Positions 45,171-47,143 of a stretch of DNA of 64,000 nucleotides are shown here, one piece after another (positions within the stretch are counted from its first letter, which is position 1; each line of letters begins with the position of its first letter). The DNA comes from Holophagaceae bacterium (GTDB lineage Bacteria > Acidobacteriota > Holophagae > Holophagales > Holophagaceae): NCBI GenBank assembly GCA_025363715.1, contig JANYLR010000098.1, positions 1-64,000 of the forward strand. The letters are read 5' to 3'. The notes under the pieces are model-generated. The model worked only from the letters and a program-made list of their open reading frames with translations. It did no database searches and was not told where the DNA came from. A program made the translations under genes and the position numbers.

Positions 45171-45983
45171 TCAGGCGCCCAACAGTTTCAGCGTGAGCCG
45201 CGGCGCGGCTTCCAGCAACGGCGTCAGCCAAGGTGCCAGTTCCCTCAGGACCAGGCCCAGGATCACCATGCCCAGGGCGATCTTCAGCGGGAAGCTCAGC
45301 TGCAGCAGCTGCAACTGGGGCATGAACTTCCCCGAGATGCCAAGGATCAGATCCAGCAGGAAGAGGATCGCCAGCACCGGGAAGGCCAGCTGGAAGCCCT
45401 TGGCCAGGAGCTGACCGATGAGGGTGACGAGCCCCAAGATCTGGAGCGGCACGCCATGGCCCATGGGAGCCACCCGGTAGCTATCCACCAGCGCCAGGAT
45501 CATCTGGTGGTGCAGGCCCGTGATGAAGATCAGCAGCGAGGCCATCTGCAATAGCAGGGCGCCGGAGATCGAAGCGCTTTGCGCACTGGAGGGATCGACC
45601 AGCTGAACGAAGGAAAAGCCCACCTGCATATCGATCACCGCGCCGGCGAAGGCCACGGCTTCGAGGATCCAGGCCACCACGGTGCCCATCAGGAGGCCGA
45701 TGGCCAGCTCCGAGGCCATCAGCCCCACCAGTTCCGGAATTCCCGCGGGAATGCTTGAAGGCACGGGCACCACAGGCAGGATGACCGTGGTCATCAGGGC
45801 GGCCAGAGCCGCCCGCAATTGCAGCGGCATCCGCTCACCGCCAAGGATGGGGAAGACCGCCAGCAGCCCCGTCATGCGCGTCAGAACCATTACCCACAGG
45901 GCCGCCTTCGCCCCGGTGAGGGCCCAGACGGCGGGGTTCAGAAGGGTGGGCGACACGGGCGACTCAGTTGAGCTGCCGGACAA
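45171..45983 (-). CDS. fliR: Flagellar export gate protein FliR
   Basis: A 270-residue polytopic protein with the expected six or so helices, forming the FliPQR export gate in the inner membrane. Motifs: RMTGLLAVFPILGGERMP near the start, GAVIDMQVGFSFVQLVDP, and a C-terminal AP-rich end. Its start overlaps the fliQ stop by 20 bp. Length and order are normal. Confidence 0.95.
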   Translation of the reverse strand: MSGSSTESPVSPTLLNPAVWALTGAKAALWVMVLTRMTGLLAVFPILGGERMPLQLRAALAALMTTVILPVVPVPSSIPAGIPELVGLMASELAIGLLMGTVVAWILEAVAFAGAVIDMQVGFSFVQLVDPSSAQSASISGALLLQMASLLIFITGLHHQMILALVDSYRVAPMGHGVPLQILGLVTLIGQLLAKGFQLAFPVLAILFLLDLILGISGKFMPQLQLLQLSFPLKIALGMVILGLVLRELAPWLTPLLEAAPRLTLKLLGA

Positions 45984-46242
45984 CCGCGTTGAAGTCCGTG
46001 AACATGTGGGTGGTGAAACGGACCATCACCTGGAGCATCCAGGGGAAGCTGATGGCTACCACCAGCAGCACCATGACGACCTTCGGCACGAAGGCGATGG
46101 TCTGATCCTGAAGGCTCGTCACCACCTGGAACACCGAGATCATCAGGCCCACCACCAGCGATACCAGGAGGGCCGGGCCGGCCACGAGCAAAGCCGTCTT
46201 CAAGGCTTCCTTTCCAATCTGCGCAATCACCAGTTCGTTCAT
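45964..46242 (-). CDS. fliQ: Flagellar export gate protein FliQ
   Basis: A 92-residue protein with two membrane helices (LLVAGPALLVSLVVGLMISVFQ and VVMVLLVVAISFPWML), the usual length for FliQ. The ATG overlaps the stop of a 50-codon frame (ATGA) that ends with a second copy of the FliP C-terminus. In most operons fliQ directly follows fliP; here an extra 149 bp separates them. Confidence 0.96.
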   Translation of the reverse strand: MNELVIAQIGKEALKTALLVAGPALLVSLVVGLMISVFQVVTSLQDQTIAFVPKVVMVLLVVAISFPWMLQVMVRFTTHMFTDFNAVVRQLN

Positions 46243-46391
46243 CCCGTGTACCCCTTCACTAGCGAGCCGATGATCAGGTACCAGCCGTCCACCTCCCGAC
46301 TCCGCGAGCGCAGCGAGTGGGAGCGTGCCGCATACGCGGCATGCGATAGGAGGGAATGCTGGTGGACCAGCACAAGGGCCGAAAAGCTCAT
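46239..46391 (-). CDS. 50-codon frame bridging fliP and fliQ, ending in FliP tail copy
   Basis: An open frame from ATG 46391, overlapping the fliP stop by ATGA, to a stop overlapping the fliQ start by ATGA. Residues 1-33 are low-complexity (SLLSHAAYAARSHSLRSRSR) and come from the hairpin-rich spacer. Residues 34-50 (VDGWYLIIGSLVKGYTG) are identical to the FliP C-terminus. It may exist only to keep ribosomes moving from fliP to fliQ, or be incidental. No independent function is recognised. Confidence 0.4.
   Translation of the reverse strand: MSFSALVLVHQHSLLSHAAYAARSHSLRSRSREVDGWYLIIGSLVKGYTG
46241..46293. repeat. Direct repeat copy A of fliP 3' end (fliQ-proximal)
   Basis: 53 bp matching 46390-46442 at 45 positions. 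All 8 differences are synonymous in the 17 shared codons plus stop. Copy A uses the GC-rich codons typical of the genome (GGC, CTG, ATC, ATC, GGC). Confidence 0.92.
46294..46389. other. 96-bp hairpin-rich spacer between fliP tail copies
   Basis: Contains a 9-bp stem GCGTGCCGC/GCGGCATGC (46323-46331 with 46336-46344, one G-T pair, ATAC loop), a 16-bp palindrome TGCTGGTGGACCAGCA (46357-46372), and CGCGAGCGCAGCGAGTG-like sequence of the kind found in dispersed palindromic repeats. No transposase is encoded. Confidence 0.7.
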
Positions 46392-47143
46392 CCGGTGTAC
46401 CCCTTCACCAGGGAACCAATAATCAAGTACCAACCGTCCACCAGCACGAACAGCAGCACCTTGAAAGGCAGGGATATGGTCACCGGTGGGAGCATCATCA
46501 TGCCCATGCTGAGGAGGATGCTGGCCACCACCATGTCCACGATCAGGAAGGGCAGGAAGATCATGAAGCCGATCTCGAAGGCGGTCTTCAGCTCACTGAT
46601 GAGAAAGGCGGGCAACAGGCATTCCATGGGCACGTCGGCCTTGGTCCTGGGCGCCGGCGCCTTGGCGATCTTGAGGAAGAGCGACAAATCCTTCTTGCGC
46701 GTGTAGCGGAGCATGAAGACCTTCAGCGGCGCGGCGGTGCGGTCCAGAGCCTGTTCCGTGGTCAGCTCGTTCCTTTGGAGGGGCTGGAGCACCGTCGTAT
46801 TGATCTCCCTCGCCGTGGGCGCCATGATGAAGAAAGTGAGCACCAGGGAGAGGCTGATGAGCACTTGGTTCGAGGGCGTCTGCTGCTGGCCCAGCCCCTG
46901 CCGCAGGAAGTGGAGCACCACCGTGATGCGGGTGAAGCTGGTGGCGGTCATGAGGATGGTCGGGGCCAGGCTGAGGACCGTCAGGACCAGCAGGGCCTGA
47001 AGGCTTGAACTCAGGCCCGCTCCGGCGGGCGCCTTGCTGAAATCCACCGTCACCGTGGGCAGGGGCGCGGCCTGCTGGGCGCAGAGGCTCAGACCGGCCA
47101 ACAGCAGCAGGGCCGCAGGCAGCCAGCGCAGCAGGCGCTTCAA
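46388..47143 (-). CDS. fliP: Flagellar export gate protein FliP
   Basis: A 251-residue export-gate subunit with an N-terminal signal peptide (about 1-22, ending SLCAQQ) as is usual for FliP, and four membrane helices. Family motifs: TSFTRITVVLHFLRQGLG, QVLISLSLVLTFFIM, and the C-terminal FKVLLFVLVDGWYLIIGSLV. The final 17 codons are duplicated downstream (46241-46293). Its start overlaps the fliO stop by 4 bp. Confidence 0.97.
   Translation of the reverse strand: MKRLLRWLPAALLLLAGLSLCAQQAAPLPTVTVDFSKAPAGAGLSSSLQALLVLTVLSLAPTILMTATSFTRITVVLHFLRQGLGQQQTPSNQVLISLSLVLTFFIMAPTAREINTTVLQPLQRNELTTEQALDRTAAPLKVFMLRYTRKKDLSLFLKIAKAPAPRTKADVPMECLLPAFLISELKTAFEIGFMIFLPFLIVDMVVASILLSMGMMMLPPVTISLPFKVLLFVLVDGWYLIIGSLVKGYTG
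46390..46442. repeat. Direct repeat copy B, the actual end of fliP
   Basis: The partner of 46241-46293, 149 bp away in the same orientation. It is less GC-rich (GGT, TTG, ATT, ATT, GGT) than copy A or the rest of fliP, as if it came from another source. Confidence 0.92.

Follow-up and report, generated by a model that had tools for sequence, protein, structure and literature searches.

Between fliP and fliQ, the Holophagaceae genome studied here carries a short structured repeat, E, enclosed by two copies of the fliP 3′ end. On balance, positions 46293–46387 of the window (the whole stretch of 64,000 nucleotides that was analyzed), together with the gene end D to which they are attached, probably constitute one copy of a non-coding mobile micro-element that enters gene ends and brings a second copy of the end along. 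The repeat belongs to a family, many copies of which lie between duplicated gene ends. Relatives possess empty versions of the same sites, both copies of the end have diverged under coding constraint, and a segment next to the repeat is antisense to the insertion site.

On the minus strand, the order at the site is X (the rest of fliP), D, spacer s, a guide-like segment, E, D′ and fliQ. The features are as follows.

46388–47143, minus strand: fliP, complete (Pfam FliP)
46442–46446, minus strand: X0, the final 5 nt of fliP ahead of the insertion point (TGCTG|GTGGAC)
46388–46441, minus strand: D, the gene-attached copy of the fliP 3′ end, i.e., the last 18 codons of fliP up to the stop codon; derived compared to relatives
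46368–46387, minus strand: s, a variable spacer 3′ of the stop codon
46357–46367, minus strand: guide-like segment GTCCACCAGCA, the exact antisense of the insertion junction TGCTG|GTGGAC
46293–46356, minus strand: E, the structured repeat of 64 nt, scoring 86.3 bits with covariance model R1
46323–46344, minus strand: HP1 of E, a hairpin with a 9-bp stem and compensatory changes at 9/9 pairs family-wide
46295–46321, minus strand: HP2 of E, the conserved imperfect palindrome CCCACTCGCTGCGCTCGCGGAGTCGGG
46239–46292, minus strand: D′, the displaced native fliP 3′ end, abutting E
45964–46242, minus strand: fliQ (Pfam FliQ), the start codon of which overlaps the stop of D′

D and D′ lie in a 55-nt direct repeat (46239–46293 and 46388–46442; 85% identical, start-to-start distance 149) and are separated by a hairpin-rich spacer of 95 bp. 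Over 54 nt, or 18 codons including the stop (VDGWYLIIGSLVKGYTG and the stop codon), they differ at eight positions, all of them synonymous. D is AT-richer than D′ (five versus one positions) and, when polarized by relatives, is derived at five clear positions and D′ at one. D′ provides the upstream region of fliQ as well as the overlapping stop and start codons (ATGA). The window genome, G000, is a draft of 121 contigs that is 84% complete. A first-pass annotation of this DNA had described two copies of the fliP end, 149 bp apart around a hairpin-rich insert, that encode the same residues plus stop, differ by eight synonymous changes only and are AT-richer where they end fliP. Each of these points is borne out, and relatives indicate in addition that the fliP-attached copy is the derived one.

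A search of 100 relatives recovered FliP in 61, and 30 fliP–fliQ junctions were read. In most of these the fliP stop overlaps the fliQ start without an insert, while some have an unrelated short spacer; the fliP-end repeat is absent from every E-less junction among the 30. The layout of the window recurs in G034 and G014, and in the tree the three carriers group in one clade with G016, whose site is empty. G055, which belongs to another genus of the same family, carries E in fliP at the identical codon boundary, with a 54-nt D that ends at the stop codon and two synonymous differences. As the same layout is present at the same codon in two other species and another genus, chance can be excluded as its origin. 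G021 is organized differently, with the fliQ start duplicated around a similar palindrome, and its sister G001 lacks the duplication. Integration at the 3′ end of the gene, with the native end displaced and a synonymous end supplied, had been suggested by the first-pass annotation and is supported by the empty sites in relatives; neither an arrangement common to all relatives nor a lack of empty sites, which the annotation had set against its own reading, was encountered. Several E-less relatives have another short repeat between fliP and fliQ, consisting of tandem units like GCTATCAGCTATCGGC (L011, L016, L021, L026, L027, L028, L030, L032), and such units adjoin E in L170.

To describe the family, covariance model R1 was built from seven copies of E. 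With this model (E-value ≤0.5), E was detected in 47/47 genomes of the same genus, at 2–37 copies per genome; because the copies were picked on their model score, members that score lower or have another structure escape this search. Outside the genus, E is present in two more genera of this family, and there are sporadic copies in family f5, one of them with a 47-nt duplication that terminates at a start codon. Two genomes of f5, which belongs to the same phylum, contain clear copies without a flanking duplication (L287 and L288, in G106 and G078). Across 96 aligned copies, both-side changes occur at every pair of the 9-bp HP1 stem and 97.7% of cells are paired, a covariation far above shuffled and slid controls. 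The sequence of the HP1 stem is free, HP2 is nearly invariant, and the conserved unpaired positions are KAWC, TC and A. An Rfam search of eight loci gave no family matching E, its hits being confined to tRNAs (one of which also drew Plastid-ycf2 calls below the threshold), and the open-access literature (subscription literature lay outside the search) yielded no description of such an element family. The E family is best read as a group of previously undescribed, tiny non-coding mobile elements. The spacer at fliP is the element itself rather than a footprint: the earlier proposal that a cargo has been lost is not supported, given that this spacer holds a repeat family found in all same-genus genomes searched, and no larger version was seen at any copy fetched. 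A second repeat, GGGGGACCGCC...GTCCCCC(C)TCGTGCACCCC, makes a hairpin of its own; E sits within it in L228, L230 and L238, and it stands alone, without E inside, in G028 (L334).

Host sequence is duplicated around E at a wide range of sites. A flanking direct repeat scoring >22 was found for 61 of the 106 copies with both flanks (mixed flank pairs score 9 at the median and 12 at the 95th percentile); strong duplication was not seen at the other 45, nor did copies without a direct repeat have a second D at a distance within their loci. Altogether, about 20 unrelated genes and two tRNA genes are involved, including fliP, gidA-like, tRNA-Ala and tRNA-Arg sites. The length of the duplication, from ~20 to >100 bp, is set by the site, with the stems internal, and the spacer between D and D′ measures 84–145 bp at most sites. 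D′ starts 0–8 nt past the 3′ end of E at nearly all sites. The orientation of E relative to transcription is not fixed. In protein genes with a sense-oriented E, the end of D coincides with the stop codon in 11 loci and lies no more than 2 nt from it in 18; for an antisense E at the 5′ end of a gene, the start codon marks the end of D, and at the tRNA-Ala site CCA does. In L197 and L237, the similarity between D and D′ ceases at the stop codon although D is 100% identical. Since the duplication in G009 extends 12 nt beyond the stop, the sharp end of D at stop codons is partly due to constraint. Two or three tandem units of gene-end duplicate and E are present in L196 (G016:C83), L268 (G045:C8), L252 (G034:C415), L303 (G055:C7) and L291 (G019:C26), which is what reuse of filled sites would produce. 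In L002 (G000:C120, ~1–1250 and 1330–1600), an integrase-like gene, called by eye, adjoins a tRNA-Ala 3′ half, which in turn is followed by a copy of E; this tRNA-Ala end appears to be used by both a conventional island and the micro-element.

The two copies of the gene end have diverged as coding sequences do. In 36 loci, D and D′ differ by 87 synonymous and 23 nonsynonymous changes, while ~76% of sites are nonsynonymous; several of these loci are orthologous and hence not all independent, and the open frame is short in a few. A D′ without function since the time of duplication should have gathered mostly nonsynonymous changes, whereas 79% of the changes are synonymous. Within one genome D and D′ are 92–99% alike at most sites, compared to 80–89% between orthologs of different species. 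From the synonymous excess and this likeness within genomes it follows that loss of function in the displaced copy is either recent or often reversed. The earlier argument that a recent, simple tandem duplication would not give synonymous changes only thus holds for the family as well, and duplication in situ followed by neutral decay was rejected in view of the synonymous excess and the dynamics of filled and empty sites. The AT-richness of D at fliP is not supported as a general rule, as the family-wide bias is not strong (44 versus 33).

Exact empty sites were seen in relatives. A kinase-like gene that was compared in 30 genomes is filled in 6 and empty in 22, with two further genomes (G039 and G028) having E without a full D′. 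On the tree, filled and empty states are intermingled, with 6 changes against a mean of 5.6 after shuffling, and they differ within close pairs, namely G044 (filled) versus G013 (empty), which are 91% identical, and also G029/G020 and G015/G025. D′ starts at the same base in all, and a 20-nt block ahead of E, GGTGAGGCCACGCTTCCCAC, is identical in five genomes behind unrelated spacers. At gidA, tRNA-Arg and tRNA-Ala, the same position is occupied in many species, with E related and the spacer mostly related.

The insertion junction between X and D is matched in antisense by the ~18 nt that precede E, on its 5′ side, at the same site. The summed match is 137.4, compared to 101.2 ± 5.2 after permutation, and none of 20000 permutations scored as high; using the whole spacer gives z 7.6 (p<5e-5). 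Taken by half, the X side has z 3.4 (p 0.001) and the D side z 3.5. In these permutation tests, targets moved by 14–30 nt gave a null result and the sense orientation z 1.6. Only the X half counts as independent evidence of target pairing, because the D half of the guide also forms a stem with the adjacent D′, and stand-alone copies of E have a like outer stem (z ~4.9). A clear guide is present in ~12 of 21 site families, with ~9 lacking one. Guides change along with their targets: for fliP, GCTG|GTGGAC is combined with GTCCAC^CAGC in G000 and GATG|GTCGAC with TCGAC^CATC in G055, and for gidA in seven species the targets GATTCCC, GATCCC and AATCCC are met by matching guides in most. In the kinase-like gene, the target changes from CTCACC to CTCGCC in G028 and the guide from GGTGAG to GGCGAG, while in G001 and G021 the X sequence changes from GGAA to GGAG and the guide from TTCC to CTC[GC]. 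In the filled allele, the X–D junction still matches the guide. Judged from these sequence matches, the antisense segment is perhaps the 'address' of its own insertion site.

Protein families that could mobilize E were searched in the 47 carrier genomes of the genus. Reverse transcriptase (PF00078) occurs in only 15/47 and is absent from G044 and G015, both of which have clear copies; Y1 transposase (PF01797) occurs in only 5/47 and TnpB (PF07282) in only 6/47. IscB (RRXRR) gave matches in 0/47, with a control search that was silent as well. This distribution rules out retroelements, RAYT and TnpB as general mobilizers. Nor do the neighborhoods of the copies contain a recurring open reading frame (ORF) or an endonuclease ORF. 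Two genomes of the genus, G040 and G020 (L199–L212), hold a Y1 transposase gene in multiple nearly identical copies.

A dedicated reaction may account for these observations. In the proposed model, the element would comprise the spacer, the ~11-nt guide-like segment and E, the 3′ end of which would become joined to fliP DNA at a point 54 nt short of the stop codon. Along with the element would come a further copy of the gene end, drawn from the same cell or from a donor, so that fliP retains an intact end (D) and fliQ its start region (D′). In single-stranded or RNA form, the guide could base-pair across the junction of the empty gene, to ~5 nt at the end of X and ~6 nt at the beginning of D, lying over the cut like a splint, and a host enzyme would join the 3′ end of E to D at the guide-paired site. 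Recombination between D and D′ would take the element out without a scar. As a splint, the guide could hold X0 and D0 together at an empty site or X0 and D0′ at a filled one, thereby serving both insertion and exact excision. More generally, and tentatively, E may exemplify a gene-less kind of bacterial mobile DNA, in which each ~100-nt copy combines an 11–15-nt guide that addresses one gene end through base pairing, a structured scaffold for recognition by an enzyme (unlinked or of the host) and a rescuing copy of the gene end, such that a new guide and end would make a new address.

Other explanations account for part of the data. Homing-like copying, comparable to that of the mobile ORFs (mORFs) discussed below, is an unlikely one: an empty allele would be cut at the X–D junction and repaired from a filled donor (cell or species), by which D, s, guide and E are copied in, D being the donor end and D′ the resident one. 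This agrees with the coding-constrained history of both D and D′, with a fliP-attached D that is derived at five clear sites in G000 next to a native-like D′, and with the abrupt end of D–D′ similarity in L197 and L237. However, no endonuclease ORF or family-wide nuclease was found, the filled allele keeps the target, and the 12 nt of duplication past the stop in G009 are what a local duplication would give. Recombination with a foreign fliP without any mobile element, which the first-pass annotation had also offered, would explain a synonymous and AT-rich D in G000; it is refuted as the sole cause, and hardly credible, given that E and the layout recur at ~20 unrelated genes and two tRNA genes.

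Quite unlikely, too, is an origin in old tandem duplications that have a hairpin repeat at their junction and whose copies gene conversion keeps similar; E would then be regulatory or mRNA-stabilizing and not mobile now. The related copies shared by many species at gidA, tRNA-Arg and tRNA-Ala and the concerted evolution of D and D′ would fit this explanation, but the predominance of synonymous changes in a D′ that should decay neutrally, the scattering of filled and empty alleles with close sisters empty, and the lack of a fixed orientation of E to transcription do not. Template switching of replication at hairpins could have generated direct-inverted-direct rearrangements, and the order X, D, s, reverse complement of the X–D junction, E, D′ resembles a tandem inversion duplication, with the guide as a fold-back scar. 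This origin is nonetheless improbable: decay would be expected of a scar, but the antisense segment tracks its target across species and one guide block recurs in five genomes behind unrelated spacers. Further candidates were rejected. Splicing of D-s-E at the RNA level, where spliced and unspliced mRNA would encode the same protein, misfits the copies at gene 5′ ends, in which E is antisense and D′ nonetheless coding-constrained; the remnant of a lost large island misfits the copies fetched, which include no larger version and no distant second D; and translation or bypassing through E found no support.

A mobile micro-element of this type would be of interest for several reasons. Mobile elements usually disrupt their target or keep to safe sites, whereas E enters many genes and leaves them intact by duplicating their ends. 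Its targets are partly likely essential (fliP, gidA/mnmG, tRNA genes), and the sites are numerous per genome and occur genus-wide. Should the antisense segment truly serve as an address, E would be a further natural system of programmed DNA insertion. For annotators, the family is a warning that a duplicated gene end may be the footprint of an insertion.

Compared to known systems, the family shares single properties with several of them. In integrase-type islands, as in E, the element restores the gene end and the displaced copy is found on the far side (attL/attR). Such islands, each with one target gene, encode an integrase and are loaded with kilobases of cargo. In the E family, in contrast, a single repeat family uses many unrelated genes. 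The terminal inverted repeats, short fixed target-site duplication and parent transposon by which MITEs are defined are not found in E. REP/BIME sequences of the GTAG and CGTC types are likewise short, dispersed, non-coding hairpins near gene ends, and the CGTC type resembles E in its 8–9 bp stems and the lack of a known transposase (PMC3733652). However, REPs are units of 20–40 bp for which no gene-end duplication is described there (PMC3733652), whereas E is a ~64-nt unit of two hairpins with a free HP1 sequence and a site-specific antisense segment. Ahead of HP1, aligned E copies show KAWC (TATC/TGAC/GATC) rather than the GTAG or CGTC tag. The GTAG type is further defined by a RAYT/Y1 transposase in its genome, whereas PF01797 occurs in 5/47 of the genomes and E in all 47.

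IS608 of the IS200/IS605 family has hairpin ends and chooses its target through base pairing of an element-borne guide just 5′ of the hairpin (PMC5934647), the position at which E has its putative guide. The IS608 guide is 4 nt long and gene ends are not duplicated (PMC5934647), while the putative guide of E, whose antisense match is significant, is ~11 nt long and partly confounded by the outer stem. Moreover, an IS200/IS605 derivative would require a Y1 (HUH) TnpA, which is absent in 42/47 E carrier genomes. The mORFs of fungal mitochondria, known from atp6, atp9, cox2 and nad3 of Glomus and atp6 of Allomyces, enter the 3′ part of a gene, bring a C-terminal end that completes it and displace the native end, and the two ends differ in a coding-type (synonymous) manner, as is the case for E (PMC3630166). 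In contrast, mORFs are ~1 kb long and encode LAGLIDADG or GIY-YIG endonucleases (PMC3630166), whereas E has no ORF, is ~65–120 nt long beyond D and targets the 3′ and 5′ ends of genes as well as tRNAs, with many copies per bacterial genome. The mORFs are thus the nearest published parallel for the exchange of gene ends and IS608 is the nearest for guide pairing, although each fails at least one of the defining features tested.
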